Source: Acidobacteriaceae bacterium (GTDB taxonomy: Bacteria; Acidobacteriota; Terriglobia; Bryobacterales; Bryobacteraceae). Taken from it: DNA of 64,000 nt. The stretch's first letter is position 1. Every line of letters starts with the position of its first letter. The notes under the pieces were generated by a model, which was not told where the DNA came from, ran no database searches, and saw only the letters and a list, made by a program, of their open reading frames with translations. A program made the translations under genes and the position numbers. This document shows, one piece after another, positions 4,691 through 46,536 of the stretch. The stretch is from contig CAJCIT010000231.1 of NCBI GenBank assembly GCA_903970405.1, positions 1 through 64,000 of the forward strand. Direction: 5' to 3'.

Positions 4691-5406
4691 AGAAGCAGAC
4701 ACGCAATCACCTCAACCCCAAGCTAAGTGAGTCCGACGGAGCGCCCGCCAAGCCCGGCCCAGTCTCGGGAGAGTTTGTCACCGAGATGTTCGAGTACGAC
4801 CGCGGAAGGCAGGTCACGGTGTACGTTCCACCGGACCCGCCCGAAGGAATCGTCTTCGCCGGCGACGGTCAGCGAATCTCGAAGTGGGGCCGGTTGCTCC
4901 AGAAGGCAGACGTACCGCCCACAATGCTCGTCGGCGTACATGGGCTGACCGATGAGACGCTGCGGCTCCATGAGTACTCACCGGGCTTTGAGCCGGAGCG
5001 GTTCGCGGCACACGAGAAGTTCTTCGTCGAGGACGTTCGCCGATGGACGGAGTCGCGGTTTGGCGTGGCGCCGCCCACTGAACGTACCGCGGTGTTCGGC
5101 GTCTCGGCGGGTGGAGAGCTGGCCCTCGCTCTTGGGCTTCGGCATCCGCATGTCTACGGTGCGGTCTTGTGCGCCTCGCCTGGCGGCGGTTACAAGCCGC
5201 CTGGCATTATGCCGAGTCCGCTCCCGCGCACATACCTTGTCGCCGGCACACAGGAGCCGTTCTTCCTCGAGAACGCAAGGAGGTGGGCGGACGCGCTGCG
5301 CGATCGAGACGCGGATGTCGTCATGAATGAGCGAGCTGGGTCGCACGGTGGCGCATTCTGGCGGGAAGAGTTCCCGCTGATGGTGGCGTGGGCATTCGGA
5401 CGATGA
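4687..5406 (+). CDS. Esterase, enterochelin-esterase-like alpha/beta hydrolase
   Basis: This is a 239-residue serine hydrolase of the putative esterase (Esterase_D-like) group. The nucleophile elbow is GVSAGGE with Ser140, inside the order VFGVSAGGELALALGLRHP, and the likely catalytic His lies in AGSHGGAFWR near residue 222. No signal peptide is visible, so the enzyme is probably cytoplasmic. The substrate cannot be assigned; relatives cleave siderophore esters or small acyl esters. The ATG at 4687 overlaps the end of the upstream antitoxin remnant, and the first roughly 30 residues are low-complexity and may not be part of the fold. A later start is possible. Confidence 0.85.
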   Translation: MKKQTRNHLNPKLSESDGAPAKPGPVSGEFVTEMFEYDRGRQVTVYVPPDPPEGIVFAGDGQRISKWGRLLQKADVPPTMLVGVHGLTDETLRLHEYSPGFEPERFAAHEKFFVEDVRRWTESRFGVAPPTERTAVFGVSAGGELALALGLRHPHVYGAVLCASPGGGYKPPGIMPSPLPRTYLVAGTQEPFFLENARRWADALRDRDADVVMNERAGSHGGAFWREEFPLMVAWAFGR

Positions 5407-5527
5407 CGCATGGCGACCATCCAAAGAAGCCTTTGTTCGCGGCCTGAGCAAGCAGGTCTCCGGGTTATTGAGCAGCTCAATACGGCGTTCAGTATGTCCT
5501 GCTCCTGACCTGGGCGCGGAACAGCTC

Positions 5528-6850
5528 TCAGCCTCCGGGCGCTCCCCGCACGGGCGCAACTGAGCGCGAGGGCGTCTGCGTCGGCCCTGTGATGAGACGC
5601 GCGCCGCGGCTGAAGGTGATGTATTGGAATCCCCACTGGATCATCACCATGATGCGGTTGCGGAATTCGACAAGGTAAAGGACGTGAACGAAGAGCCAGA
5701 TCAACCAGGCGATCAGGCCCGAAAGATGGAGCCCGGCGATGTCGGCGACGGCTGAGCCGCGCCCGATCACCGCCAGGCTGCCCTTGTCGAAGTAGTGAAA
5801 CGGCTTCGTGACAGGCTTTCCCTTTAGACGCCCAAGGATGACTTTGGCGGCATACTCGCCGCCCTGCATGGCGACCTGGGCGACGCCGGGCAGAACCTTC
5901 CCGTCTGAGCCCGCAATCTGCGCAATGTCTCCGATGATGAAGACTTCGGGATGGCCAGGGAGCGTAAGGTCTGGATTCACCTTCAGACGCCTCAGCTTGT
6001 CGAGCTGCGCGCCGCTTTGGACGGCCAGCGATTCAGTGAGTTCAGACGAAGTGACGCCGGCGGCCCACAACACCGTGCGGGTGTGCATAGTGCAATCGCC
6101 ACTGGCTGCGCGATACGTTAGCCGCTGGTCTGAGATGTCAATGACGCGGACACCCGTCTTCACGTTGACGCCGAGCTTATTCAGTGAACGAACCGCCGCC
6201 TCCGCCAAGTCGGGCGGGAACGCCGACATAATGCGCGGCGAGCCTTCCAGGAGGAAGATCTGGGACTCTTCGGGCCGGATGGCGCGAAACTCGTGCTTCA
6301 AGGTGAAGCGCGCGATTTCACCGAGGGCCCCAGCGAGCTCGACGCCCGTCAATCCTCCGCCGACAATGGCGAACCGCAACCAGGCTTTGCGTTCTTCGGG
6401 GTCAGTTTCGCGCTCGGCCGCTTCGAAGGCAAACAGTATCTTGTGGCGGATGGCGGTGGCTTCCTCAATGGTTTTCAGACTGGGCGCTACATCACGCCAT
6501 ACATCCTTCCCGAAATAGGCGCTGCGCGAACCGGCCGCAACGATGAGCGAGTCATAGGGGACCATGCCGCCATCGCTCAAGGAGACCTCGCGCCGCGCCA
6601 GATCGATCTTCACGACGTCACCGAGGAAGACTTCCGTGTTCTTCTGGCCGGCCAGTACGCTGCGAATGGGCGCCGCAATTTCACCAGGCGACAATGTGCC
6701 CGTCGCCACCTGGTACATGAGCGGCTGAAACAAATGGAAGTTACGGCGATCGATCACGGTTACGTCCGCCCGCGCATGCTTCAAGCCTTGGGCTGCGTAC
6801 AAGCCGCCGAAACCGGCGCCGATGATGACAATCCGTTGTTGAGCGCTCAC
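5528..6850 (-). CDS. ndh: Type II NADH dehydrogenase (NDH-2)
   Basis: NDH-2 oxidises NADH and reduces quinone at the inner membrane without pumping protons. The 440-residue protein has the FAD-binding IVIIGAGFGGLYAAQGL at residues 7-23, a second nucleotide-binding motif IVGGGLTGVELAGAL near 164-178, and the FAD-contacting segment VFIIGDIAQI. A C-terminal hydrophobic stretch (SGLIAWLIWLFVHVLYLVEFRNR) provides membrane attachment, as usual for the family. It follows a membrane-anchored peroxiredoxin-like gene by 42 bases on the same strand, so the two are probably co-transcribed, linking quinone reduction to thiol redox control. The proline- and serine-rich tail after residue 420 is not conserved family sequence as far as I can tell. 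Confidence 0.95.
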   Translation of the reverse strand: MSAQQRIVIIGAGFGGLYAAQGLKHARADVTVIDRRNFHLFQPLMYQVATGTLSPGEIAAPIRSVLAGQKNTEVFLGDVVKIDLARREVSLSDGGMVPYDSLIVAAGSRSAYFGKDVWRDVAPSLKTIEEATAIRHKILFAFEAAERETDPEERKAWLRFAIVGGGLTGVELAGALGEIARFTLKHEFRAIRPEESQIFLLEGSPRIMSAFPPDLAEAAVRSLNKLGVNVKTGVRVIDISDQRLTYRAASGDCTMHTRTVLWAAGVTSSELTESLAVQSGAQLDKLRRLKVNPDLTLPGHPEVFIIGDIAQIAGSDGKVLPGVAQVAMQGGEYAAKVILGRLKGKPVTKPFHYFDKGSLAVIGRGSAVADIAGLHLSGLIAWLIWLFVHVLYLVEFRNRIMVMIQWGFQYITFSRGARLITGPTQTPSRSVAPVRGAPGG

Positions 6851-6892: not shown

Positions 6893-7903
6893 CTAACTCG
6901 CAACAGCCTCGGCGGCGCCGTCCTCAATATCCAATTGCAGCACACGCCGGTAGTTGGGCCGGTCAGCTACGGATCGGTGCAGGAAGCTGCGTACGATGTG
7001 GCCTTGAAGAATCACGAAGATGCCCGGCATCTGGAACACGTCGCCAACCACCCACCCCAAACCGTGACGTTCGAAGACGGCGGCGGCGGCTAAACGCCAG
7101 ACTGCCGCCGGTCCAAACACGTTCAGCAGGCCGCCGCGGCCGAGGCCGAACGCACGATAGATGACGCGATTGTTGTCGCTCACCCGCGGCAAATCGGCAA
7201 GGCCGTAGAACTGGAAAACCTCACGCGCCTGCCGATCGGCGGCCATGTGTATCAGCACAATCTGCGTGCCGGTGCTCTCTATTTCCTTGCGCTGTTTGGA
7301 AAGATCGGAGAGCGATTCACGGCAGAAGGGACATCCGAACTGACGGAGGAACACCATAATAACCGGCTGGCGTTTCGACATCTCAAGCAGCGCCAGGCCC
7401 TTGTTCGTACGGCTGCGAAGGGCCATCTCTTGAACGGCCGGAGAAATCTTCCGAACGACGCCCGGCCGCACCCTATAAGCCTTCAAGAGGATGAGGGCGA
7501 AGGGAACTAACCAGATGAGGCCAATGTTCCAGCTATAGTTCCAGGGCCACCGGCCGGCGGGCGCGGTTTGAAACAACTCGATTGCCGCGGCGATATTCGT
7601 CAGCAGACCCATCAGCACAACCGGCCAGTGGCGAACGGGATTCGTTGCCGCTGCTAAGCAGCCCACTCCCAAGATACCGGCGACTGTGCCGATTCCTTGC
7701 CAGACTTCGGGAACGTTGGGCGCGCCAAACAAATGGAAGAGCAATGAGGCCCAAATGAAAGCTCCCCACAGCACGTTAAAGACGCCGGCCGACGCCATCG
7801 TCCAGGACATCCAATGTACCGCCTGAGCTGCTCGACCTGAATTTGAGGGCGTGGACGCATCGATCTCACTGTTGTCGGGCCCATATGGCAACTCATTCAA
7901 CAT
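6893..7903 (-). CDS. Membrane-anchored peroxiredoxin-like (AhpC/TSA-type) protein
   Basis: The 336-residue protein is a fusion. Residues 31-145 contain about four transmembrane helices (around 33-58, 70-87, 93-111 and 125-141). Residues 165-325 form a thioredoxin-fold domain of the SelL/PRXL2-like group, with FLRQFGCPFCRESL carrying Cys191 and Cys194 and downstream elements such as YRAFGLGRGG and GDVFQMPGIFVI. The catalytic domain is expected to reduce peroxides or disulfides at the membrane face. The gene is upstream of ndh with a 42-base gap, suggesting an operon. It could alternatively serve as a membrane thiol reductase. The N-terminal membrane region has no family I recognise. Confidence 0.85.
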   Translation of the reverse strand: MLNELPYGPDNSEIDASTPSNSGRAAQAVHWMSWTMASAGVFNVLWGAFIWASLLFHLFGAPNVPEVWQGIGTVAGILGVGCLAAATNPVRHWPVVLMGLLTNIAAAIELFQTAPAGRWPWNYSWNIGLIWLVPFALILLKAYRVRPGVVRKISPAVQEMALRSRTNKGLALLEMSKRQPVIMVFLRQFGCPFCRESLSDLSKQRKEIESTGTQIVLIHMAADRQAREVFQFYGLADLPRVSDNNRVIYRAFGLGRGGLLNVFGPAAVWRLAAAAVFERHGLGWVVGDVFQMPGIFVILQGHIVRSFLHRSVADRPNYRRVLQLDIEDGAAEAVAS

Positions 7904-8031
7904 TCGCTTTAATTAAGAGATGACGCTCGGGGCTTTGTCGCGCTAAAAAGCCCAGGGATTTCTTGACTTTCTCCCATGAACCTGCGACGCCCCCTGTGCC
8001 CGAGCGGAATCCTACCGGATACGACGTCTCG

Positions 8032-9030
8032 ATGCAGGTAGAGTTTCACGATTATGGCGTTTTCCTGCCGGAGATCGACCTCTGGCTGGATTCCACCGCC
8101 CCACAGCGCGCCACCTGGATTTCGCACGGCCATCGTGACCATGCACGCGGCCGCCATGAAAGGGTTCTCGGAACAAGTACCACGCTACGCTTTTACCGAA
8201 TGAGGCTCACGGTCGAGCCTCAGGACCGGGAACCCGAGGAATTCCCACTGGAGTTCGGAGAAACTCTCGATTGGAATGGCGCTCTGCTGACCGCTTATCC
8301 TGCCGGCCACATCCTGGGCGCCGCGCAACTTCTGGTCACTTACAAAGGGGAACGCCTGGTCTACACGGGCGACGTCAAGTTGCGGCCGCCACTGGCTGGC
8401 GTCACCGCTGTTACGGTTCCCTGTGACCGGCTGATTATTGAATCGACCTTCGGTCTGCCCATCTACCGGCTTCTGTCACGCGAAGAAGCGCGCGAGCGCA
8501 TCGTTAGGTTCGCCAGGGAATGTCTGGCCGAACAATCGATTCCGGCTTTCATCGGGTACGCGCTCGGCCGGGGACAGGAAATCGTTAGCATTCTGTGCGA
8601 GGCAGGTATCCGAACGGCGGTTCATGGCGCGATCGCCCGATTCATCCCGATCTACGAGGAGGCGGGTTATCGCTTTCCCGGATGGGAGGCCTATGACGCT
8701 CGCGAAACCGCCGGCAAAGCCCTGGTTATCGTGCCCACGCATGGCAGCGGGCTGAAGGCGCGAGGAAGAAACATTCGTATCGCCTATGTGTCGGGATGGG
8801 CGGCGTTGAGCAATGCGCGAGCGCGGTCCGGGGCCGAGGAACTGATTCCGTACTCTGACCACTCAGATTTCGATGAACTGCTCGATATGGTCACTCACAG
8901 CGGTGCGAGACACATCGACCTGGTCCACGGCTACACGGAACCGTTTTCGAGGATACTCATGAAGCGCGGTTTTGAGGCGCGGGGCCATCGCGCCGGCGCC
9001 GGCACGAACGTTGAGGACGCCGAAGGGTAA
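8032..9030 (+). CDS. Ligase-associated DNA exonuclease, metallo-beta-lactamase/beta-CASP fold
   Basis: The 332-residue protein matches bacterial MBL-fold nucleases related to mRNA 3'-processing factors that are encoded beside ATP-dependent DNA ligases. The zinc-binding motif is HGHRDH with His32, His34, Asp36 and His37, and later metal or active-site elements include GHILGAAQLL, YTGDVK and the C-terminal SDHSDFDELL and VHGYTEPF. I chose ATG 8032 because family members start close to the segment equivalent to EFHDYGVFLPEIDLWLD; the open frame extends to ATG 7963, which remains possible. The DNA ligase begins six bases after its stop, so the pair almost certainly works together in repair of DNA ends. 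Confidence 0.9.
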   Translation: MQVEFHDYGVFLPEIDLWLDSTAPQRATWISHGHRDHARGRHERVLGTSTTLRFYRMRLTVEPQDREPEEFPLEFGETLDWNGALLTAYPAGHILGAAQLLVTYKGERLVYTGDVKLRPPLAGVTAVTVPCDRLIIESTFGLPIYRLLSREEARERIVRFARECLAEQSIPAFIGYALGRGQEIVSILCEAGIRTAVHGAIARFIPIYEEAGYRFPGWEAYDARETAGKALVIVPTHGSGLKARGRNIRIAYVSGWAALSNARARSGAEELIPYSDHSDFDELLDMVTHSGARHIDLVHGYTEPFSRILMKRGFEARGHRAGAGTNVEDAEG

Positions 9031-14213: not shown

Positions 14214-15053
14214 GTGAAGACTCACCTGAGGAGCCAGGCCAGTATCGCTCTCGATCGGTGCCAGGTAGACGAATACCTGGATCGTCTATTGTCTTGCGAG
14301 GCATCGCGGTCGAACGGCGTCGTCCAGGAGGCGATGAGATACGCCGTGTTGGGACGCGCCCAACGCGTCCGGCCGATTCTCGCGCTCCGGGTAGCGCGTA
14401 CCCTGGGGCGGCGCGGCCCGCTCCCGCTCTGTGCCGGCTGCAGCGTGGAGTTGCTGCATTGCGCTTCGCTGATTATCGACGATCTTCCCTGTATGGACGA
14501 CGCGCCAGTGCGCCGGGATCGGCCGTCCGTGCATATCAAGTTCGGAGAGGCGGCGGCCGTGCTGGCCGCCTTTGGTCTGGTGGCGCTGTCCGCCCGTTTG
14601 CTTGTGGAGGTGGAGGCGACGCTCCTGGAGCACCAACGCCTCGCCGATTTCCAAATCGAGCTCCTGCGCAGTCTGGATTGTTCGGGCCTCATTGCCGGAC
14701 AGGCGCTGGACCTGCAACTGGCTGACAATCGCTACCCGCGCACCGATTGCCGGGTGACTGAGTTGAAGACTGTGCCGCTGTTCCAGTTGGCGGTGGCCGG
14801 CGGCGCTCTTTGCTCCGATCTCGATTCAAATGAAGAGGCCCTGCTGCAGTGTTTCGGCCGCGAGTTTGGGCTTGCGTTCCAAATGACGGACGACCTCCTT
14901 GACGGCGAATCCATTGAGCGCAACTTGCTCGAAGACAAGTTCAGCACTCTGCGGGCCGCCATCTCTCCATTTGGGCCCCGCAGCCGGGAACTGGAGGAGC
15001 TCCTCGACTATCTGCATGCGCGAGCAACAACTCAAGGACCGTACGTTCAGTAA
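14214..15053 (+). CDS. crtE: Polyprenyl (geranylgeranyl-type) diphosphate synthase
   Basis: This trans-prenyltransferase condenses isopentenyl diphosphate with allylic diphosphates to feed carotenoid synthesis. In 279 residues it shows the first aspartate-rich motif DDLPCMDD (Asp89, Asp90, Asp95, Asp96), the basic RRDRPS after it, the GQALDL segment at 162-167, and the second motif DDLLD (226-230). It starts with GTG 14214. Its 3' end overlaps phytoene desaturase, which marks an operon. Product length (farnesyl or geranylgeranyl diphosphate) cannot be read reliably, so crtE is assigned by context; a C15 product would make the downstream pathway C30. Confidence 0.85.
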   Translation: MKTHLRSQASIALDRCQVDEYLDRLLSCEASRSNGVVQEAMRYAVLGRAQRVRPILALRVARTLGRRGPLPLCAGCSVELLHCASLIIDDLPCMDDAPVRRDRPSVHIKFGEAAAVLAAFGLVALSARLLVEVEATLLEHQRLADFQIELLRSLDCSGLIAGQALDLQLADNRYPRTDCRVTELKTVPLFQLAVAGGALCSDLDSNEEALLQCFGREFGLAFQMTDDLLDGESIERNLLEDKFSTLRAAISPFGPRSRELEELLDYLHARATTQGPYVQ

Positions 15054-16575
15054 TCTCCCGGTAAGCCCGCCCGCGTTTCTTCCGTCAAGCGCCAAGAAAA
15101 AAGTGGTTGTGGTCGGCAGTGGATTCGGAGGTCTCAGCGCGGCCGTCCGCCTGCAAACCAAAGGCTTTGACGTGGATCTGATTGAGGCTCGCGACAAACT
15201 GGGCGGCCGCGCCTACCTCTATGAGCAGGACGGCTTCAAGTTCGATGGCGGCCCCACGGTGATTACCGCGCCGTTCATGATTGAAGAGTTGTTCACCGGC
15301 GCCGGGCGCAACCCGGCCGATTATGTGCGCATGGTTCCCGTGGAGCCGTTCTACCGGATTGAGTTTCATGACGGCCGATCCTTCGAATACGGGCTGGACG
15401 AGGCCGAGACCGAGCGGCGAGTGGCTGCCTTCGCTCCCAACGATCTGGACGGGTACCGCCGCATGGTGCGGCATGCTAAAGCCATCTTCGACAAAGGCTT
15501 TCTGGAACTGTCCAACCGGCCATTCCTAAGATTTAGCGACATGCTCAGGGTGGCGCCCGATCTGGTTCGTCTCCAGTCCTATAAGTCGGTTTATCGTTTC
15601 GCGGCCGGCTACGTGAAGGATCCGCTTCTCCGGCGCGTCTTCAGCTTTCATCCGCTATTGGTCGGTGGCAATCCCTTTCAGACAACTTCCATCTACGCGC
15701 TGATTCACTACCTCGAACGGCGATGGGGTGTTCATTACGCGATGGGCGGCACGGGATCGATCGTCGCGGGCCTGGGACGCCTGTTCACGGAACTGGGTGG
15801 ACGCGTGCATCTCAGTACGCCAGTCGCGAAGATTTTAGTGGAAGCCGGCGCTGCCGTGGGCGTTCGCACCGCCGCGGGCGAGACGTATCGCGCCGACGCG
15901 GTGGTGAGTAATGCGGATGTGGCTAACACGTACCGCAAAATGGTTGCGCCGGAGCATCGTCCGAAGTATACAGACCGGCGCCTGGCCAGAATGCGCTACA
16001 GCATGTCTCTATTCGTAATTTATTTTGGCACGCGAAAACAATACCCCGGCATCGAACACCACACCATTATCTTGAGCGAAAGTTACCGCGAACTGCTCAA
16101 CGACATTTTCAATAAGAAGTTGCTGCGCGATGATTTCTCGCTCTATCTGCATCGGCCGACGGCCACCGACTCATCGATGGCGCCTGCTGGATGCGACTGC
16201 TTCTACGCGCTGGCGCCGGTTCCTCACCAGGAAAGCGGTATCGACTGGACGAAGCAGGCGCCTTTGTTTCGCGATCGGATCACGAAGTTTCTGGATGAGC
16301 GCTATCTGCCCGGCTTGCTTGAAAATCTGGTTACGGAGCGCCTGCTGACACCTCTAGATTTCGAAACTACGTTAGACACCTATCGGGGGTCCGGCTTCTC
16401 CTTTGAGCCGCTCTTTCGGCAAAGCGCCTGGTTCCGTCCCCACAACGAATCGGAGGACGTCCGTAACCTCTACTTTGTGGGAGCGGGAACGCACCCGGGC
16501 GCGGGCGTTCCGGGAGTTCTCTCATCCGCTAAAATTGCCGAACAATTGATCTGCGATCGTTTGCGGAGCAATTGA
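15016..16575 (+). CDS. crtI: Phytoene desaturase family FAD enzyme
   Basis: CrtI-type enzymes desaturate phytoene (or the C30 analogue) step by step at the membrane. The 519-residue protein has the dinucleotide-binding VVVVGSGFGGLSAAVRL near its N-terminus, the GGRAYLYEQDGFKFDGGPT active-site region, and the C-terminal FAD motif NLYFVGAGTHPGAGVPGVL. I chose ATG 15016, overlapping crtE by 38 bases, because residues from the longer frame starting at 14899 overlap conserved crtE sequence and look unlike CrtI. A GTG further down near 15100 is also possible. The next gene starts two bases after its stop. Confidence 0.92.
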   Translation: MREQQLKDRTFSNLPVSPPAFLPSSAKKKVVVVGSGFGGLSAAVRLQTKGFDVDLIEARDKLGGRAYLYEQDGFKFDGGPTVITAPFMIEELFTGAGRNPADYVRMVPVEPFYRIEFHDGRSFEYGLDEAETERRVAAFAPNDLDGYRRMVRHAKAIFDKGFLELSNRPFLRFSDMLRVAPDLVRLQSYKSVYRFAAGYVKDPLLRRVFSFHPLLVGGNPFQTTSIYALIHYLERRWGVHYAMGGTGSIVAGLGRLFTELGGRVHLSTPVAKILVEAGAAVGVRTAAGETYRADAVVSNADVANTYRKMVAPEHRPKYTDRRLARMRYSMSLFVIYFGTRKQYPGIEHHTIILSESYRELLNDIFNKKLLRDDFSLYLHRPTATDSSMAPAGCDCFYALAPVPHQESGIDWTKQAPLFRDRITKFLDERYLPGLLENLVTERLLTPLDFETTLDTYRGSGFSFEPLFRQSAWFRPHNESEDVRNLYFVGAGTHPGAGVPGVLSSAKIAEQLICDRLRSN

Positions 16576-16576
16576 T

Positions 16577-17497
16577 TTGCCGCCGGCCGCCGACTCCAGC
16601 CTCGAACCTCTCTACCGCCAAGCGGCGGAGGCAACTGCCAAAGGATCGAAGAGCTTCTACTTCGCCACGCGCTTCTTTCCACCTGCTTTGGCTCGCGCCG
16701 CGCATTCAGTCTATTGGTTCTGCCGTTATACCGACGATTTGGCGGACGAGTGCGAAACAGTGGAGCGGGGAAGGCGCGACATCGAAGAGTGGTCCGGACG
16801 GCTGAAGCAAGCCGAGGATGGCGCCCGGGACGTCCATCCGGTGCTGCGGCTATTCCTGCATACGGCCCGAGAATACGAGATCCCGCTCGGGTACGCACAT
16901 GAGCTGATCGAAGGTATGCGCATGGACCTGACGCGGAGCCGCTATCCGGATTTCCCGTCGCTGCGCCTGTTCTGTTATCGAGTCGCGTCTGTGGTTGGGC
17001 TCATGATGTCATGGGTGATCGGCTTTGAGAATCCGGTCGACCGCGAACGCGCTCTGCCGCACGCGATCGATCTTGGCATCGCCATGCAACTGACTAACAT
17101 TCTTCGCGACATTGGCGAGGATCGCAGCCGAGGGCGCATCTACATTCCACAGGATGAGATGGCGCGCTTCGGTTACAGCGAAGAGAGTTTGCTGGCCGGT
17201 GAGCGCAATCGGGCTTTTTCGAACCTGATGAGCTTTCAGGTGGAGCGCGCCCGCGCCTACTATGAGCAAGGCAACAAAGGCATCCCGTTGCTAGATCCGC
17301 GCGGCCGGTTTGCCGTTAAGATTGCGTCCGATGTTTACCGCGAGATTCTAATGTGCGTGGAAGCCAGCCGCTTCGACGTGTTTGAGCATCGCGCCGTGGT
17401 GCCGGCCGCGCGAAAGTACTGGCTCACTGCCCGCAACCTGAGCCTTCCCATACTGCGCCATTCCGTCTCACGCCTGCCCTTTTGGAGACAGCCGTGA
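16577..17497 (+). CDS. crtB: Phytoene/squalene synthase family (phytoene synthase)
   Basis: This 306-residue enzyme joins two prenyl diphosphates head to head to make phytoene (or dehydrosqualene if fed with C15 units). The first Asp-rich motif is DDLAD (Asp53-Asp57) after VYWFCRYT, and the second lies in NILRDIGEDRSRGRIYIP, where the substrate magnesium is bound. It begins at TTG 16577 immediately after the crtI stop. Its own stop TGA overlaps the GTG of the sulfite-oxidase-like gene by four bases. Squalene synthases share the same motifs, but the crtE-crtI context favours carotenoid synthesis. Confidence 0.92.
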   Translation: MPPAADSSLEPLYRQAAEATAKGSKSFYFATRFFPPALARAAHSVYWFCRYTDDLADECETVERGRRDIEEWSGRLKQAEDGARDVHPVLRLFLHTAREYEIPLGYAHELIEGMRMDLTRSRYPDFPSLRLFCYRVASVVGLMMSWVIGFENPVDRERALPHAIDLGIAMQLTNILRDIGEDRSRGRIYIPQDEMARFGYSEESLLAGERNRAFSNLMSFQVERARAYYEQGNKGIPLLDPRGRFAVKIASDVYREILMCVEASRFDVFEHRAVVPAARKYWLTARNLSLPILRHSVSRLPFWRQP

Positions 17498-19029
17498 CGC
17501 CGGGGAAAGAGACGCTGGCCGAGACCCTGCGGGCCTCGTCAATCGGAACGGTGCTTGGCCTTACCGGTCATTACGCATGGTTTTATGCGAGCGGCTCGCC
17601 ACTGTTGACTGACCGCATTGCCGAATGGATCATGGCGCGAACGCCGTCACGGTATGCCGTATGGATTCTGGATCGTCTGGGACCGTGGGGCAAGCCGTCG
17701 GCAATGACGGGCGCGCTAGCCACGCTGGGCTTCGCGGCGTTTCTGATCAGGCGAAGCGGCTGTCTCACTTCATACCGCTGGCGCATTCCGGCGATAGCGG
17801 GCACGGCCTTTGCCGCGGCTACGGTGGTTTCATTCGCATTTGACTACCGGTGGCTGACCGGCGAGATCTCGTTTTGGCTGCCGCTCACCGGCTTTCTCGC
17901 ACTGTGTCTTTGGCAAAAGCGAGGCGCCGTGAAGCCGACCGGCTCGGCGGCGCCGCACCTGGATGCGATGAGGCTCGAGGCACCGGTGGAGGCGCGCCGC
18001 GAATTCCTCGCCGCGGTCACTCGGTATGGGCTGCCGCTGGCAATGTCGGGCGGTGTAGCGGCGGTGGCGGCGGAAAGCTACTTTCGCGAAGAGGTTCTGG
18101 CGCGCCGCGCCTCGAATCCAGTGGATCTTTTCCCGTTTCATCCGCCGGTTGACGACGATTTCGCCCAAGGACTGGTCCGCCCGCTCATCACGCCGGTTCC
18201 ACAGTTCTACGGCATGAGCAAGAACACCGTAGACCCGGTGATTGATGTGCGCAATTGGCGCTTGACAGTGAGCCTGGATGGCTGGCCGGTGCGCCGCTTC
18301 CGCTATGGCGATCTCTTTGCCCTGCGCAACCGCGACCTTCGCTTCGTGACGCTGCGCTGCATCAGTAACACCCTGAAGTCTGACCTGATGGGAACAGCCG
18401 AATGGGCGGGCCTCCGCCTCTCACAGTTGATTGACCCAAACGCCATTCCTTCCCGCATGATTGAGGTTGCCTTCATCGGCGTGGAGGGGCATGACGACAG
18501 CATGAGTCTGGACTATGCCTTTGGCGAAGAAACGCTGCTGGCATTCGGCATGAACGGCAAGACCTTGAGCCGGACCCACGGTTTTCCGCTGCGTTTGCTG
18601 GCGCCGCGCTACTATGGCTGCCGCAATGTGAAATGGATTGGGGAGATCCGGTTTGTGAGCAAGCCTTACTACGGCACGTGGCAGCGGCTGGGGTATACAA
18701 AAGAGCCGAGAATACACACGGCCTCGCATATCGATCGCATGTTGAGGGTGGATGGCCGCTTGCGTTTCGGTGGCGTTTCGTTCGCGGGCAGCCGCGGCAT
18801 TCGCGCTGTTCGCGTGCGCTCAAACGGCGGCCCGTGGAGTGAGGCGAAGCTTGAGCGTCCACTGTCGGCGTACACATGGACGCGCTGGATTGCGGAGTTG
18901 CCGGCGGCTTCCGGTGACACGCTTGAAGCCAATGCGCAGGACGGCTTCGGCGCGTGGCAGGAACTTGCCGAAGCGAGTCCGTTTCCGGCTGGTCCGATTG
19001 GCCCAACCATCGTCAAGGTTCGAGTGTGA
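17494..19029 (+). CDS. Membrane-anchored molybdopterin (sulfite-oxidase-like) oxidoreductase
   Basis: The 511-residue protein has an N-terminal membrane region of about 145 residues (three or four helices, around 20-35, 70-87, 100-116 and 124-140) and one further helix near 175. From about residue 230 it shows the sulfite-oxidase fold: RNWRLTVSLDGWPVRRF, then FVTLRCISNTLKSDLMGTAEWAGL with Cys289 as the likely molybdenum ligand, and the C-terminal dimerisation domain ending VRSNGGPWSEAKLE. It starts at GTG 17494 inside the crtB stop and its own stop overlaps the glycosyltransferase GTG. A redox role in carotenoid tailoring is possible but is an inference; a general periplasmic sulfoxide or sulfite role cannot be excluded. 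Confidence 0.85.
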   Translation: MTPGKETLAETLRASSIGTVLGLTGHYAWFYASGSPLLTDRIAEWIMARTPSRYAVWILDRLGPWGKPSAMTGALATLGFAAFLIRRSGCLTSYRWRIPAIAGTAFAAATVVSFAFDYRWLTGEISFWLPLTGFLALCLWQKRGAVKPTGSAAPHLDAMRLEAPVEARREFLAAVTRYGLPLAMSGGVAAVAAESYFREEVLARRASNPVDLFPFHPPVDDDFAQGLVRPLITPVPQFYGMSKNTVDPVIDVRNWRLTVSLDGWPVRRFRYGDLFALRNRDLRFVTLRCISNTLKSDLMGTAEWAGLRLSQLIDPNAIPSRMIEVAFIGVEGHDDSMSLDYAFGEETLLAFGMNGKTLSRTHGFPLRLLAPRYYGCRNVKWIGEIRFVSKPYYGTWQRLGYTKEPRIHTASHIDRMLRVDGRLRFGGVSFAGSRGIRAVRVRSNGGPWSEAKLERPLSAYTWTRWIAELPAASGDTLEANAQDGFGAWQELAEASPFPAGPIGPTIVKVRV

Positions 19030-20147
19030 CCGGTTTTCAAAACGTAACGGCTGAATCGGCTGCACTCACCGGAGCCGCGGTTGGACTCGGCATTGCATTC
19101 TTCCTGTGGAAGTCGCGTCGCAATTACCTATTGCTGCCGGAGGTGCCAGCGCCGCGTGAAGCGGAGGGCCAGCGCGTTGACGTTACCATCGTGATTCCAG
19201 CTCGCAATGAGGCCCGGAATATCGGCCGGTTGGTGGCGAGCGTATTGCGAAGCGGGCGGGTGTTAGTGGTGGACGACTCATCGACTGACGACACCGCCTC
19301 CCATGCCGCCCGGGCGGGAGCGGAGGTGATTGCTGCACCGCCGCTGCCCGCTGGGGCCTTGGGCAAGCCCCATGCCTGCTCCTTCGGAGCCCGCCAAGCC
19401 GACACGCGCTGGGTTCTGTTCCTGGACGCCGATACCTGGTTTGAGCCCGGCTTTGTGCCGTCACTGATCCATTTTGCGGAGCAGCGTCGATTGCAGATGG
19501 CGACTGTGTTTCTTGATTTGCACTGCGTCTCACTGGCGGAGAAGGTTCTGCTGCCGTATGCGATTGCCCTCTATTTTGCGGGGGTGAGCGCACGCGCGGT
19601 CAACGATTCGAATTCCCCGGAGTCGCTGGCGAATGGGCAGTGCCTGTTATTCGAGCGCGAAGCGTATGAAGCTATAGGAGGTCACCAGGCTGTGATTGCC
19701 AGCGTCATTGAGGACGTTGCGCTGGCGCGGCTGGCTAAACAAAAGAAGCTCCGAGTGCGCGTTCTGAGGACTGTGACGCTAGGCCATGTCCGGATGTACG
19801 AGAGTTTTCAAGCCATCTGGCGCGGCTTCCAAAAGAACTCGTTTCGCTTTCTCCTGATCAACCCTTTTACCGGAGTTCAGGTCATTGCGGCGTCGATTCT
19901 GCTGACGTCTTATCTGCCGGTGATCGCGCTCTTATGGGCCGGGGGCCTGCCGCCGTGGTGCGTCGCGGCGTTCGCTTTGGCGCCGGTGCTGTGGCTGTCG
20001 GGCTGGTACAGCGCGCCTCACGGCCGGCATCCGTGGCGCTCTCTTCTGGCACCGCTCGGAATCTATTTCTTTCAAGCCATCGCGCTGAATGGGATGCTGA
20101 CCACGTTGTTTGGCCTCAAAGCCGATTGGAAGGGACGTCGTGTCTGA
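19026..20147 (+). CDS. Family 2 glycosyltransferase, carotenoid-cluster (CrtQ-like role)
   Basis: The 373-residue enzyme is a membrane GT2: one N-terminal helix (about 12-28), the catalytic domain with VTIVIPARNEARNIGRL, VVDDSSTDDT, the metal-binding FLDADTWFEPG, and NGQCLLFEREAYEAIGGH followed by the acidic SVIEDVALARLAK, and about three C-terminal helices. It starts at GTG 19026 in the GTGA overlap with the preceding gene. The architecture resembles 4,4'-diaponeurosporenoate glycosyltransferases and hopanoid-associated GT2 enzymes. Its position between carotenoid core genes and an acyltransferase supports glycosylation of a carotenoid, but the acceptor is inferred. Confidence 0.85.
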   Translation: MTGFQNVTAESAALTGAAVGLGIAFFLWKSRRNYLLLPEVPAPREAEGQRVDVTIVIPARNEARNIGRLVASVLRSGRVLVVDDSSTDDTASHAARAGAEVIAAPPLPAGALGKPHACSFGARQADTRWVLFLDADTWFEPGFVPSLIHFAEQRRLQMATVFLDLHCVSLAEKVLLPYAIALYFAGVSARAVNDSNSPESLANGQCLLFEREAYEAIGGHQAVIASVIEDVALARLAKQKKLRVRVLRTVTLGHVRMYESFQAIWRGFQKNSFRFLLINPFTGVQVIAASILLTSYLPVIALLWAGGLPPWCVAAFALAPVLWLSGWYSAPHGRHPWRSLLAPLGIYFFQAIALNGMLTTLFGLKADWKGRRV

Positions 20148-20880
20148 GACTATCGCGAGCCCCGGAAAGTTGACATATCCGGTGCCCTACCGCATCGTCA
20201 GCCGCATTTGGCCAAACATCCTGAACAACACCCCCTACGACATTGACCTGCTGACCCGCCAGCTTTCTGACCGGTTCCACTACGACCCGATTATCGAAGG
20301 GATCGATCGTCTGCCGGAGTCCTCGCGTTTCGTGTTGGCGGCGAATCACTACGAACGGAAGGGTCTTTGGATTTTGCATATCGCGGCTGTGTTGACGCGG
20401 ATTATTGCGCGGCGCTACGGACTTGGTGACCCTCCGGTCCGTTGGGTGGTGACGGCGAACTGGCCACCCTTGAAGCTTGGCAACCGGCGGGTTGCTTCCC
20501 CCGGAGACGTACTGTTACCGCGCGTAGCCACGGCCTTCTCCTGCTATCCCGTTTCGTTCTCCGGCGGCAACCCTGCGTTTACGGCCCGCAGCATCCGCCG
20601 CATCTTGAGAGAGATTCCTGAAGGTGGCCGCCCCCTTGGTCTCTTCCCGGAGGGGGTGATGGGCACGGCGGATAAAATGAGTGCGCCCCTACCTGGAATC
20701 AACCGCCTTTTAACGCATCTGGCCAAGCGCGGCGTGCCGGTAGCGCCATTCGGAATCTCAGAACAAGGGCGATATGTGGTGCGGATCGGGCCGGCCATTG
20801 CCACCGGCGAGTTGTTGGCGGCGAGGGACCCGGCGGAGTTAGTAATGGAGAGGATCAGCGAGTTGACCGTGGAAAGGTGA
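20140..20880 (+). CDS. Glycerol-phosphate-acyltransferase-like enzyme with altered HX4D motif
   Basis: The 246-residue protein resembles PlsC-type acyltransferases. It has LAANHYERKG at 67-75, where the family normally has NHX4D but the aspartate position is Gly75, and a standard LFPEGVMGTAD (168-178) matching motif III. It starts at GTG 20140, overlapping the glycosyltransferase by eight bases, and so belongs to the same operon. By analogy with CrtO of staphyloxanthin synthesis it may attach a fatty acid to the carotenoid glucoside. The missing Asp makes the classical catalytic dyad incomplete, so either another residue substitutes or the activity differs. Confidence 0.8.
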   Translation: MSETIASPGKLTYPVPYRIVSRIWPNILNNTPYDIDLLTRQLSDRFHYDPIIEGIDRLPESSRFVLAANHYERKGLWILHIAAVLTRIIARRYGLGDPPVRWVVTANWPPLKLGNRRVASPGDVLLPRVATAFSCYPVSFSGGNPAFTARSIRRILREIPEGGRPLGLFPEGVMGTADKMSAPLPGINRLLTHLAKRGVPVAPFGISEQGRYVVRIGPAIATGELLAARDPAELVMERISELTVER

Positions 20881-21424: not shown

Positions 21425-21979
21425 TTGGCTATGCGCTCCGGCGGCTTGCGGGGTTCGCGCGCCGTCACCGTTCCCATCGTCGCCACATTTGCAATGGTGG
21501 CGTGGGACGTGGCCATGGACCCGGTGTGGTCGACCGTCGTGAAGGCCTGGATTTGGCGCGATGGCGGCATGTACTTCGGCGTGCCTCTCTCAAATTTCCG
21601 CGGCTGGGTGATCACGGTATTTCTCATCTACCAGTTGTTCGCGATTTCGCTGCGGCGGCGCGCGGACCGGAGCACGCTGCCGCCGATTCCCCATTGGCGG
21701 CTGGCAGTGACGGGCTACGCCATCACGGCCGGTGGGAACTTGCTGTTGCTACTTCCAAACAGCCGGCCAGCTACGGTAGCGGATGCTACGGGCAGAATCT
21801 GGAATGTAGCGGAGATCGCCGCCGCAACAGCGATGGTATCCATCTTCGCGATGGGCGCATTTGCCGTGGTGGCCTGGGTCAACGGCAGCGAGACCGAAGA
21901 GCGCCAGTGGCGTGGAAGTGGCAATATCCCGATCGGCGGTTCGGCTACATCTATTTTCCTAACAGCCGAAGACGTATAA
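21425..21979 (+). pseudogene. 5'-truncated CruF-like carotenoid biosynthesis protein (DUF422)
   Basis: The 184 codons encode the C-terminal part of a CruF/DUF422 membrane protein: VAWDVAMDPVWSTVVKAWIW, then GMYFGVPLSNFRGWV, and two more hydrophobic helices. CruF-type enzymes hydrate the terminal double bond of gamma-carotene or lycopene. Full members have roughly 100 more residues with several helices before the DPxW motif; here an in-frame stop at 21419-21421 precedes the first possible start (TTG 21425). The upstream 540 bases do not encode the missing part in any frame that I could see. It is therefore either a remnant or, less likely, a short functional variant. Its position after the acyltransferase fits the carotenoid operon. 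Confidence 0.7.
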
Positions 21980-42899: not shown

Positions 42900-45800
42900 C
42901 TAGAACACCACCTTCATACCGAACTGAATCTGCCGTGACGTTGTCGCGGTGCTAGTGATCAGACCCGCGGTTGAGCTCACTTGTCCGCTGGAAAAGACAA
43001 TCGCGTTCGGAGTACCGAAATTGGCGTGGTTCAGCGCGTTGAAGAATTCTGACCGGATCTGCAGTTTTACGCGCTCAGTAATGGCGATGTTCTTGAACAG
43101 CGACACGTCAAGGTCGGCGAGACCCGGCCCGGTCAACACGCCGCGCCCTACGTTCCCATAAGTGCCCGCCGTGGGCAGGACAAACGCATTGGGATTGAAC
43201 CATTGATTCGGATTCCCTTCCACAATCGGCCCGCTGAAGGTTGTGCTGTAGGAGGGGCGGTCCGGGTTGCGGGTATCGCCGTCGCCCGAACGGTTCGAAC
43301 CGACTTGCGGAGTGACGGGGAATCCGCTCAGCAGCGTGGCAATTCCATTCAGTTGCCAGCCGCCGATGAATTTATCGCCGGTGTCAGAGACATTCCCAAA
43401 CCAGGCTTTGCCGCGCCCGAGCGGCAGCTCGTAACGGGCCGACAAACTGGCCTGATGATCGGCATTGAGCGCGGACGGCCCCCAGTCAGCCCGCAGGTCA
43501 TTGCGATTCAGCACCATCTGGGCTTCGTTGCTGGCCTGCGCGCCGGTCAGCGCGGAATTGATGTCCAGGTTTTTTGACCACGTGTAGTTCGCGCGAAATT
43601 CCAGGCCATGGCTGAATCGCTGCGTAACGTCAGTCTGAAGCGCGTTGTAACTGCTGTTGCCTTCCGTGTACCAAAAGAAGCCGCCGGAGAGGTAGGGGTT
43701 GGGCCGCGTCCCGACGGGGATATAGCTAACGCCTTCGGCGACCTTCCCTTTCGCCGAACCCACGCCGCCCGAAACGCAGCCCGCTACATTTTGACACACC
43801 TCGGCCGGAATGCTGTTCGGATCGATGCTGATCAATTCGTGGTACCCGAATGACCCGACGTAAGCCACTCTCAGTGACATCTGATTCGTCAACTGCCGCT
43901 CCACAGTGAGATTCCATTCGTTCACCGCCGGGGTTTTGGCGTTGGGCTGAACGCCTTGCGGCGCATAGGTAGTGCAAGGCGCGGCAACTCCCGGGCCGCA
44001 CTGGGGCGGGGGTTGCACTCCTTTCGCGACGGGAACAATAGATGGCAGCGGAACGTTCGCGTACGAAGCCGTTCCGTTGTAGGGCGGCAAGGAATTCACC
44101 AGAAAACTGAGATCGTCAATCAGCGAGTAGTAGACGCCATACCCGGCGCGAATAGCCGTTTTTCCGTCGCCCGCCGGATCCCACGCCAGCCCAAGCCGCG
44201 GACCCAACAGGTGGGCGGCGTTGTTAGCGGTGAAGAGCGATTTGCCCACCAGGGGGTTCGTCTCCAAAACGCCGGCTGAATTTGTGATGTAATTCGAAGC
44301 GCGGCCATCGGCCTCATTCCAGCCATCGGTGAATTCGTAGCGCAGGCCGGCGCGCACCGTCAAATTCCGCCGCACTTTCATTACATCTTCGGCATACCAG
44401 GCGCCCAGAAAGCTGCGGAAGGCCAACTCGCTGGGATTCGGCACCACCTGAAAGCTGCTCACCGTTCCTTGCAGGAACGTGGTTAGGCTGGTGAAACTGG
44501 CCTGGCCCAGTTGGCGAGAAGCCGTATCTTCGTTATCCTGTAGCGGCTGGAACCAGACGCCGACATTGAATTGATGGATGCCCTTCGTAAATTGGAAGTC
44601 ATCCTCATAGGTAAAGAGGTTTCTCCGGTTCCAGACGTTCGCCGCGTTATTCGGGCCGGCTGATGTAATGGCCGATGCGCCGGTGGTGGTGACGCCACCT
44701 CCTATCACAATTCCGCCCGGACCCCCACTGCCTGTCACAAAATTGAGGTCCGAAGGGAACGATGTCACCTGCGGGGCGTTGAAGTTGAATGCCGCCCGGG
44801 AGAAACCCAACCGGGCCGTATTCAGCGCTTCAGGTGAAAAAATGTGCGTTTCCTGCAAGCTGGCTACTTGACTCACCAGAATCAGGTACTGCGCAAACAA
44901 GGGGTCGGACGCAGGCGTCAGGTTAGTGCCGTCATCAATCGTGTACGCCGCGGTGAGGGTATCGCGATCGCCAATCGCGTAGTCCCCGCGCATGGTGCCG
45001 AAGTCTTCATGGACGCTCTGGCGAGGATTGTTGTAGGAAAGCGCAATCCCGGTGGGCACGCCGTTCGAATATAACTCCGGACCGTTGGCCGCGGGCCACA
45101 GCGCCATATACTTCAGCATCGCGGGATTGAGCTTCGCAACAGGCTTATAGATGCCGGCGGCATTGGGGAGCAAGCCCAGACGCGCCTGGGCATCAGGCAC
45201 TTCGCTCAAGCTGCTTTCGGCCAGCGCCTGGCGGAAGCCTTCATAGTTGCCGAAGAGGAACAGGCGGTTCTTGATCACGGGTCCGCCCAGCGAGCCGCCA
45301 AACTGATTCCGGCGGAACGGCGGCACGAAGCCGCGGTCGAAGAAATTTCTCGCGTCCAGATCGCTGTTACGGAGGAACTCAAACAGCGTTCCGTGCACGG
45401 CATTGGCTCCCGATTGCGTAACCACAATGACCTGCCCCCCCGCCCGTTTGCCGTATTCGGCCGAATAGGTGTCGGTCAGAATGTTGAATTCGCGAACGGC
45501 GTCAATGCCCAGTAGTTCCCCGCTGGCTCCGCCGGGCGTGTCGGCCAGTTGGCTGGAGCCGGTGTATTCAATTCCGTTCAAGAGCACGATGTTGTCCGCG
45601 GGCCGCCGGCCTTCCACGCTGAATGTGTTGCCGTTACTGGTGCTGGTTCCGGCGCTTTTCAGGGTGAAGTCGATGGCGCCGGGATTCAAAGTGATGAGAT
45701 TGTCGAAACTGCGCCCATTCAGCGGAAGATCTTTCACTTGGCTCGCGCCCACCAGTCCGGCAGTCGATTCCGTAGTTGTGTTGACGATTGGCGCTTCGTC

Positions 45801-46181
45801 TGAAACGTTGACTTCGGAGACGAATGTCCCCACCTCAAGCTGGAAATTCACCGTGGCGTTCTGATTCAGCGTCAGCGTGACGCCCGTCCGGTTCACCGGC
45901 TTGAATCCGCTCTTCTCGGCGCGGACTTCCGTTGGTCCAAGGGGCAGGGCCAGAACCTTGTAGTTGCCGGATGCATCAGTTGTGTCGCTCCGCCGTGCTC
46001 CGGTTTCGAGGCTGGTGACGGTGATGCTGGCCCCTGGAACGCCACTTCCCGAGGGGTCCACCACCGTGCCCGATAGAGCCGCTGTGACCTGCGCGTGGAT
46101 GGGGCGCGCACCAGCCAGAAGGAGCAGTCCCACTGCCGCAAGTCCGAGAACCACGGCGAAAAGTGACTTAAGCGTCCACAA
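42900..46181 (-). CDS. TonB-dependent receptor-like (Oar-like) outer-membrane protein
   Basis: This protein of about 1093 residues carries a signal segment (TLKSLFAVVLGLAAVGLLLLAGARPIHAQ), a carboxypeptidase-regulatory-like beta domain (ALSGTVVDPSGSGVPGASITVTS, about 30-110), a plug region with VKDLPLNGRSFDNLITLNPG, and a beta-barrel ending IQFGMKVVF with an aromatic last residue. Such proteins are abundant in acidobacteria and are thought to import or bind carbohydrates or peptides. The start is uncertain: TTG 46181 places the signal peptide at the N-terminus, but it has its ribosome binding site too close; the frame continues upstream through the palindrome at 46187-46266 to ATGs at 46292, 46328 and 46493. 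Confidence 0.88.
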   Translation of the reverse strand: MWTLKSLFAVVLGLAAVGLLLLAGARPIHAQVTAALSGTVVDPSGSGVPGASITVTSLETGARRSDTTDASGNYKVLALPLGPTEVRAEKSGFKPVNRTGVTLTLNQNATVNFQLEVGTFVSEVNVSDEAPIVNTTTESTAGLVGASQVKDLPLNGRSFDNLITLNPGAIDFTLKSAGTSTSNGNTFSVEGRRPADNIVLLNGIEYTGSSQLADTPGGASGELLGIDAVREFNILTDTYSAEYGKRAGGQVIVVTQSGANAVHGTLFEFLRNSDLDARNFFDRGFVPPFRRNQFGGSLGGPVIKNRLFLFGNYEGFRQALAESSLSEVPDAQARLGLLPNAAGIYKPVAKLNPAMLKYMALWPAANGPELYSNGVPTGIALSYNNPRQSVHEDFGTMRGDYAIGDRDTLTAAYTIDDGTNLTPASDPLFAQYLILVSQVASLQETHIFSPEALNTARLGFSRAAFNFNAPQVTSFPSDLNFVTGSGGPGGIVIGGGVTTTGASAITSAGPNNAANVWNRRNLFTYEDDFQFTKGIHQFNVGVWFQPLQDNEDTASRQLGQASFTSLTTFLQGTVSSFQVVPNPSELAFRSFLGAWYAEDVMKVRRNLTVRAGLRYEFTDGWNEADGRASNYITNSAGVLETNPLVGKSLFTANNAAHLLGPRLGLAWDPAGDGKTAIRAGYGVYYSLIDDLSFLVNSLPPYNGTASYANVPLPSIVPVAKGVQPPPQCGPGVAAPCTTYAPQGVQPNAKTPAVNEWNLTVERQLTNQMSLRVAYVGSFGYHELISIDPNSIPAEVCQNVAGCVSGGVGSAKGKVAEGVSYIPVGTRPNPYLSGGFFWYTEGNSSYNALQTDVTQRFSHGLEFRANYTWSKNLDINSALTGAQASNEAQMVLNRNDLRADWGPSALNADHQASLSARYELPLGRGKAWFGNVSDTGDKFIGGWQLNGIATLLSGFPVTPQVGSNRSGDGDTRNPDRPSYSTTFSGPIVEGNPNQWFNPNAFVLPTAGTYGNVGRGVLTGPGLADLDVSLFKNIAITERVKLQIRSEFFNALNHANFGTPNAIVFSSGQVSSTAGLITSTATTSRQIQFGMKVVF

Positions 46182-46186
46182 CCCTT

Positions 46187-46266
46187 CCGAGCCGCGACCG
46201 TCCGGGAGCGACCGCGTTGCTGGTCCTATCCCGCTAGCCGGTCGCTCCCTCACGGTCGCGGCTCGG
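46187..46266. repeat. Palindromic repeat in the leader of the Oar-like receptor
   Basis: Positions 46187-46214 and 46239-46266 pair over 28 bases with two mismatches, leaving a 24-base loop. The right arm, CGGTCGCTCCC, then CACGGTCGCGGCTCGG, matches the ends of dispersed copies at 26057 and 40513. The hairpin lies immediately upstream of the proposed start of the receptor gene. Because its length keeps the frame open, the receptor ORF can be read through it. Confidence 0.8.
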
Positions 46267-46536
46267 TCTGCTCGGCGGCTCGGTCGGGACATTGTCCGAG
46301 CAAATGTGAGCGTGAGGAGATGAAGCATCGTAATCAACAACCAGTTTAGTGAACACGCCCGTGAGTGGCTCGAAGAGGATAACCTGACGTATAGGTAGCC
46401 GGCGCGGCCGCAACCTGCGGGGCGGCCCGTTGGCAGGATGGGCCACCACCACTGTCGCTCCCTGAGATCCGAGAACGTTGGAAAAAACCTCAATCTAATG
46501 TCAGGAGGGCACCGCAGCAGCGAGTCACTGCCCGTT

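Follow-up and report, generated by a model that had tools for sequence, protein, structure and literature searches.

Organization of the carotenoid operon

We analyzed a 64,000-nucleotide stretch of DNA from an Acidobacteriaceae bacterium (contig CAJCIT010000231.1, positions 1 to 64,000; hereafter, the window), which carries a six-gene carotenoid operon in the order crtE-crtI-crtB-SUOX-GT-AT, where SUOX denotes a molybdenum (Mo) oxidoreductase with the sulfite-oxidase fold, GT a glycosyltransferase and AT an acyltransferase. The SUOX gene, the fourth in the operon, is an open frame encoding 511 amino acids from a GTG codon at 17494, with an in-frame TTG further 5' at 17482. The first-pass annotation of this DNA had described a sulfite-oxidase-like gene at 17494-19029 that overlaps its neighbors through GTGA at both ends, and we confirmed the frames and the overlaps. 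In particular, the GTGA at 17494-17497 overlaps the SUOX start with the crtB stop, and at 19026-19029 the SUOX end overlaps the glycosyltransferase start. The glycosyltransferase frame, 19026-20147, is open. The carotenoid character of the neighbors was also borne out, with crtE, crtI and crtB upstream and a CruG/HpnB-like glycosyltransferase and an acyltransferase downstream. The genes of the operon are as follows.

17494-19029, + strand: membrane-anchored sulfite-oxidase-fold Mo oxidoreductase (SUOX), operon gene 4 (PF00174, E=2e-28; AlphaFold2 and Foldseek; orthologues at the same operon position 45-58% identical)
14214-15053, + strand: crtE, polyprenyl (geranylgeranyl diphosphate-type) diphosphate synthase, operon gene 1 (PF00348, E=3e-33; first in the conserved order)
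15079-16575, + strand: crtI, phytoene desaturase family, operon gene 2 (TIGR02734, 609 bits; 67-75% identity in relatives)
16577-17497, + strand: crtB, phytoene synthase family, operon gene 3 (PF00494, SQS_PSY, E=3e-80)
19026-20147, + strand: family-2 glycosyltransferase, HpnB/CruG-like, operon gene 5 (PF00535, TIGR03469, NF045692)
20110-20880, + strand: acyltransferase with the PlsC/PatA fold, operon gene 6, start codon uncertain (PF01553, weak, in 9 of 10 members; AlphaFold2 and Foldseek)

The crtI open frame reaches back to a TTG at 14899, and its homology starts near 15079. The glycosyltransferase was found to share 33% identity (3e-31) with that of the Thermus carotenoid cluster. The top Foldseek matches of the acyltransferase AlphaFold2 model were PlsC and PatA (E=2e-6), and a BLAST comparison with the acyltransferases of Thermus and Deinococcus revealed no convincing match. 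In the orthologues of this acyltransferase, the NH and FPEG motifs were kept, and the aspartate position of the HX4D motif is apparently Gly (NHYQRKG).

Conservation of the operon and co-occurrence of SUOX with CrtI

We compared the operon by tblastn with 21 loci from named genomes, nearly all labelled Bryobacterales or Acidobacteria, and with loci from further genomes of the window's family. At 21 distinct Bryobacterales loci, all six genes shared one order and orientation. At three further loci (L050-L052), no acyltransferase was found, with SUOX and the glycosyltransferase still adjacent; the remaining loci were cut by contig ends. The SUOX stop codon was embedded in ATGA, GTGA or TTGA in 29 of 39 distinct genes, and the glycosyltransferase frame was seen to start at this stop in at least 10 loci. 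When all open frames in the flanks were compared, no other conserved neighbor was found across the locus set, and only the six operon genes were kept. In a single genome, a sterol-desaturase-like FA_hydroxylase gene immediately follows the acyltransferase gene (L155 in G408, 4891-6156, - strand); it was rejected as an operon member on its absence from the other loci. In a plasmid search for carotenoid-linked homologues in other phyla, the three matches examined with annotation (Thermus, Mycobacteroides and Halarchaeum) had no crt neighbors.

Among 200 genomes of the window's family, operon-type CrtI (67-75% identity) was found in 40 and SUOX in 41, with both present in 37 (Fisher p=3e-32, relatedness ignored). 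The three genomes with CrtI only, and three of the four with SUOX only, had their matches at or near contig ends, which explains G478, G484, G514, G016, G363 and G431 as apparent counter-examples: G478 and G514 end inside crtI at a contig end, G016 begins inside crtB, and the matches in G484, G363 and G431 are positioned near contig ends. The one interior exception is G433, which has SUOX without CrtI and has lost both crtI and crtB. Its SUOX is decayed, being fused to a crtE fragment and carrying Arg in place of the Mo-ligand Cys, Asn in place of H333 and Arg in place of W381. This decay suggests, from one case, that SUOX is not kept without carotenoid genes. The decayed SUOX-crtE fusion lies at about 7641-8321 of its locus (L160, G433:C15), and the adjoining glycosyltransferase gene is apparently still nearly full length.

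Additionally, when pairwise identities were compared across the operon genes, those of SUOX agreed most closely with those of CrtI (Spearman 0.82). The first-pass annotation had left it to a phylogeny to decide whether the carotenoid-linked forms are a clade. A maximum-likelihood tree was built from 39 such forms and 29 other SUOX-type domains, the latter taken from relatives and plasmids. All the carotenoid-linked forms grouped in a single clade (support 100/100), and its long stem is placed with weak support. MoaC, which takes part in Mo cofactor synthesis, was present in 16 of the 17 operon genomes tested. The synteny and the co-occurrence led us to reject a passing insertion or an annotation accident, and we found no fully readable orthologous cluster without the SUOX gene, in agreement with the earlier suggestion of a Mo enzyme belonging to carotenoid metabolism. 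SUOX is thus very probably dedicated to the carotenoid pathway.

Overall architecture and predicted topology of SUOX

The AlphaFold2 model of SUOX, built on an alignment of 29 orthologues, had a predicted local distance difference test score (pLDDT) of 85 and a predicted template modeling score (pTM) of 0.78. The model revealed helices at residues 8-33, 38-49, 52-91, 94-115, 121-141 and 165-205, with the sulfite-oxidase fold after the last of these. The first-pass annotation had proposed a multi-helix segment of roughly 145 residues fused to a molybdopterin domain; the fusion was reproduced by the model, and the length was revised, as the five-helix membrane part extends to approximately residue 205. 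The following parts were distinguished.

17494-17916, + strand: N-terminal membrane part, residues 1-141 (AlphaFold2 helices)
17986-18108, + strand: twin arginine R168 R169 and last membrane helix (residues 165-205), a twin-arginine translocation (Tat)-type signal (R169 in 29/29, R168 in 26/29; Sco3746-like layout)
18235-18681, + strand: molybdopterin-binding domain, residues 248-396 (PF00174)
18358-18360, + strand: Cys289, predicted Mo ligand (invariant in 29/29; aligned with the SorA Mo-ligand Cys)
18721-19008, + strand: C-terminal beta domain, probably of the sulfite-oxidase dimerization type, residues 410-505 (AlphaFold2 strands; SorA alignment)

The orthologue alignment contained the invariant residues E44, W45, M47, T50, P51, W65, K67 and P68 in the region of the loop between transmembrane helices 1 and 2 (TM1-TM2), and lineages with residues missing from the stretch after TM2 and before the last helix (L042, L044 and L050 among them) retained the E44-W45/K67-P68 region. 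The TAT signal family PF10399 was matched by two members (best E=0.003). The Mo domain of SUOX is predicted from these sequence features to be exported via the internal twin-arginine helix and to be periplasmic. No invariant His was present in the first 215 residues of the 29 orthologues, H26 being found in 21 of them, and no built-in heme is therefore predicted in SUOX.

Among the Pfam models, only PF00174 (Oxidored_molyb) matched SUOX, over residues 248-396 with 99 bits against a curated cut-off of 24, and it matched all 29 members; the CruF and CrtC models (PF04240 and PF07143) gave no match. Mo-co_dimer (PF03404) matched 10 of the 29 members (best E=5e-4), and the AlphaFold2/Foldseek comparison and the SorA alignment span this domain. 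With the SUOX model as the query, Foldseek placed SorA, SorT and the chicken and plant sulfite oxidases first (E to 6e-19), followed by nitrate reductase.

The active site differs from that of sulfite oxidases

To compare active-site residues with the known enzymes, we took reference positions from mutant chains in the PDB (R55M and Y236F) and from general knowledge of sulfite oxidases. Eleven residues were invariant in the carotenoid-linked forms, namely Cys289, Arg288, Ser291, Asn292, His333, Asp335, Arg360, His362, Arg367, Lys380 and Trp381. Cys289, which the first-pass annotation had picked as the likely Mo ligand, sits in RC[IV]SNTL, and its invariance and its alignment with the SorA ligand uphold that assignment. 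In the profile alignment, the sulfite-binding position of SorA Arg55 and chicken Arg138 was Met241 in 29/29 members, and the SorA loop carrying Arg109 was missing. The position of the catalytic Tyr (chicken Y322, SorA Y236) corresponded to Y401, which was Tyr in 23/29 and Phe in 6/29.

These residues bear on whether SUOX is a true sulfite oxidase or dehydrogenase that the operon carries either by chance or for some general redox purpose. The fold and the best solved relatives, which are sulfite dehydrogenases, are what such an enzyme would show. Because the sulfite-binding Arg is replaced by the invariant Met241, an anionic substrate is unlikely, and the missing Arg109 loop and the Tyr-to-Phe changes argue in the same direction, as do a score of 83 bits with the SorA model, the cut-off of which is 600, and the strict carotenoid linkage. 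We therefore rejected this explanation on the active-site residues: the carotenoid-linked forms are unlikely to be sulfite oxidases, and a sulfite enzyme placed in the operon by chance would be highly improbable. The earlier label of sulfite-oxidase-like holds for the fold and is misleading for the function, as the sulfite-binding arginine is gone.

We also considered a role in protection or repair, in which SUOX would be an MsrP-like reductase for methionine sulfoxide or for an oxidized (epoxide or peroxide) carotenoid, dedicated to the pigment site. MsrP of the MsrP-MsrQ (YedYZ) system belongs to the same superfamily and is a Mo enzyme exported by Tat, acting at the membrane together with MsrQ (PMC5449189); Tat export of SUOX is predicted, and the NCBIfam MsrP model gave a weak match (42.7 bits, E=4e-11). 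This score is, however, far below the cut-off of 207. MsrP lacks the sulfite-oxidase C-terminal domain that is predicted in SUOX and depends on a heme protein as its separate partner, and no MsrQ-like partner is conserved beside SUOX. The decay that accompanied the loss of crtI and crtB in G433, although a single case, would not be expected of a repair enzyme. We consider this role unlikely. Among the roles that the first-pass annotation had listed, hydroxylation has the best circumstantial support and sulfoxide repair has weaker support.

CruF and other oxygen-installing enzymes in the family

To place SUOX among enzymes that add oxygen to carotenoids, we compared its distribution with those of known families. 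CruF was found in 21 other genomes of the family, all of which were without SUOX, and the sole overlap between the two was a truncated copy in the window. Closed genomes of both kinds occurred in the same genus, G416 with CruF and G461 with SUOX. The CruF genomes without SUOX contained crtB-crtI-crtE-GT-crtD-cruF clusters, which were read in nine genomes, with families assigned in G416. In that genome, the cluster (L164, 6855-14409) has an alpha/beta hydrolase gene between crtI and crtE; L165-L172 carry similar clusters, and the relatives that hold these loci lack the SUOX operon. The cruF-like frame of the window lies downstream of the operon and outside it.

21425-21979, + strand: cruF-like frame truncated to its C-terminal half (PF04240 matched over profile positions 96-184 only; TIGR03460, E=9e-12)

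No N-terminal half was found upstream of this frame in any frame of the window. It is probably a remnant, and it may be a leftover of the alternative CruF pathway; as it comprises the C-terminal half only, we rejected it as the hydratase of the SUOX-operon pathway. Elsewhere in the window, 42900-46493 (- strand) encodes a large beta-barrel protein of the outer membrane that contains a carboxypeptidase-regulatory-like domain (PF25183).

Four near-complete operon-bearing genomes, G400, G443, G461 (closed) and G472, gave no match to PF04240 (CruF), PF07143 (CrtC), PF00067 (cytochrome P450) or PF04116 (FA_hydroxylase, CrtZ-type), with CrtA and the FA_desaturase-type CrtW and CrtR not having been searched for. 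Each had a single CrtI homologue, even at 1e-5. The SUOX enzyme is therefore the only oxidoreductase of the operon that is not accounted for.

These counts also bear on another form of carotenoid tailoring, after or apart from glycosylation, in which SUOX would, for example, oxidize or reduce the carotenoid at its opposite end, which faces the periplasm, and the glycosyltransferase acceptor would arise otherwise, such as from a CrtI side activity or an unlinked oxygenase. The operon and co-occurrence data fit this explanation equally, the predicted periplasmic location of the Mo domain fits it better, and, of 17 genomes tested, 13 have one or more P450, CrtC-type or FA_hydroxylase genes in some part of the genome. 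Nevertheless, the four genomes without these families and with a single CrtI speak against it, as does the position of SUOX directly before the glycosyltransferase, with overlapping ends in many loci. The CrtC-type match that we examined, the PF07143 match in the window genome, adjoins an ATP-binding cassette (ABC) transporter operon and not crt genes; it was rejected as a carotenoid hydratase and is probably an AttH-like protein. We regard such tailoring as rather unlikely.

Glycosyltransferases related to that of the operon were found beside oxygen-installing enzymes in other bacteria. In Thermus, the homologous glycosyltransferase and an acyltransferase adjoin a P450 and a lycopene cyclase. 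A glycosyltransferase of the same kind adjoins a CruF-type protein in Deinococcus deserti and lies beside CruF and CrtD in Bryobacterales relatives.

Proposed function of SUOX

As the glycosyltransferase needs an acceptor group and CrtE, CrtB and CrtI yield a hydrocarbon, we propose an oxygen-installing role for SUOX. CrtE, CrtB and CrtI would produce an acyclic carotene in the membrane, where SUOX would be held by its five helices with the exported Mo domain at the membrane surface. The water or oxo group bound to Mo would then put an oxygen function on the carotene end group. The simplest product would be a hydroxyl, formed by dehydrogenative hydroxylation or by hydration of the end double bond, and the glycosyltransferase followed by the acyltransferase would convert it to a glycosyl acyl ester. 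This is the reading that we favor, and we consider it an even call whether SUOX uses water to install the oxygen function on which the glycosyltransferase acts. Rather more tentatively, a SUOX-fold enzyme adding water oxygen to a carotene end group might represent a third O2-independent route beside CruF and CrtC, and the first carbon-hydroxylating (or alkene-hydrating) SUOX member. The fold, the predicted anchor, the Mo-ligand Cys, the place in the operon, the nearly obligate co-occurrence and the lack of the tested alternative oxygen-installing families in four genomes come from the analysis, and the substrate, reaction direction, product and electron acceptor are inferred.

Several points weigh against the oxygen-installing role. 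A real difficulty is that the predicted location of the Mo domain is the periplasm and the glycosyltransferase needs a cytoplasmic nucleotide sugar, which would place the two reactions on opposite faces of the membrane; either the oxygenated end would need to cross to the opposite face, or the modified end would be the other one. The operon encodes no redox partner and the membrane helices contain no conserved His, so that the exit route of electrons was not identified; the hydration variant would need no electron acceptor. To our knowledge, no member with the sulfite-oxidase fold hydroxylates carbon. The glycosyl ester product is itself deduced from the glycosyltransferase and the acyltransferase. 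The genomes were mostly metagenome-assembled.

The product of the operon may also differ from a carotenoid glycosyl ester, in which case the Mo enzyme would act on another lipid (e.g., polyprenyl or hopanoid-like) made by the same genes. CrtB and the glycosyltransferase also score against the hopanoid models HpnD and HpnB, which is consistent with such a lipid. In contrast, CrtI scores 609 bits with the phytoene desaturase family model, and the CruF carotenoid clusters bring together distant counterparts of CrtE, CrtI, CrtB and the glycosyltransferase. On balance, another lipid seems an improbable substrate.

Comparison with known systems

The fusion of a membrane part with a Mo domain is not unique to SUOX, as an internal twin-arginine helix also occurs in other polytopic Mo proteins. 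Sco3746 from Streptomyces coelicolor is such a protein, and its Sec-Tat insertion was tested with reporters (PMC5449189). Both proteins have several membrane helices, a twin arginine right before the last helix and a C-terminal Mo-cofactor domain. Whereas the Sco3746 homologues contain conserved membrane histidines for two b hemes (PMC5449189), the carotenoid-linked forms contain none, and some of the latter have lost TM3-TM4. No carotenoid link for Sco3746 is reported in the passages of PMC5449189 consulted. SorA of Starkeya novella SorAB (PDB 2blf), the best structural match, shares the Mo domain and the Mo-ligand Cys with SUOX and, probably, the dimerization-type domain. It differs in having no membrane anchor and in the active-site positions described above, as Arg55 is Met in SUOX, the Arg109 loop is absent and the Tyr236 position is variable.

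CruF and CrtC are the proposed functional counterparts of SUOX, as they place a hydroxyl on the carotene end before glycosylation. These carotenoid 1,2-hydratases, of two distantly related kinds, are cofactor-free and unrelated to SUOX (PMC6013536), and CruF is absent or truncated where SUOX is present. The Thermus cluster (P450 - lycopene cyclase - acyltransferase - glycosyltransferase - crtI) resembles the operon in that the homologous glycosyltransferase lies beside an acyltransferase and an oxygen-installing enzyme; unlike in the SUOX operon, the oxygen is added by a P450 and there is no Mo enzyme. In open-licence full text, we found no Mo enzyme in carotenoid biosynthesis, and limonene dehydrogenase was rejected as a Mo precedent, being a flavoenzyme. 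Mo-dependent, water-derived hydroxylation of isoprenoid side chains is known from the steroid C25/C26 dehydrogenases (S25DH/S26DH) of the dimethyl sulfoxide (DMSO) reductase family (PMC6016249, PMC11061730). Unlike SUOX, these enzymes consist of three subunits and contain Fe-S clusters and heme b.

Implications

If the oxygen-installing role is true, SUOX would represent a new enzyme class in carotenoid biosynthesis and a new reaction for the sulfite-oxidase family, a new use of a known fold. It would also provide a water-using, O2-independent enzyme for carotenoid engineering, and it would give a function to one branch of the large, mostly uncharacterized group of membrane-bound 'molybdopterin-dependent oxidoreductases'. 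For the bacteria themselves, it would explain how pigments are functionalized in a widespread acidobacterial group without the known hydratases and oxygenases that were tested.

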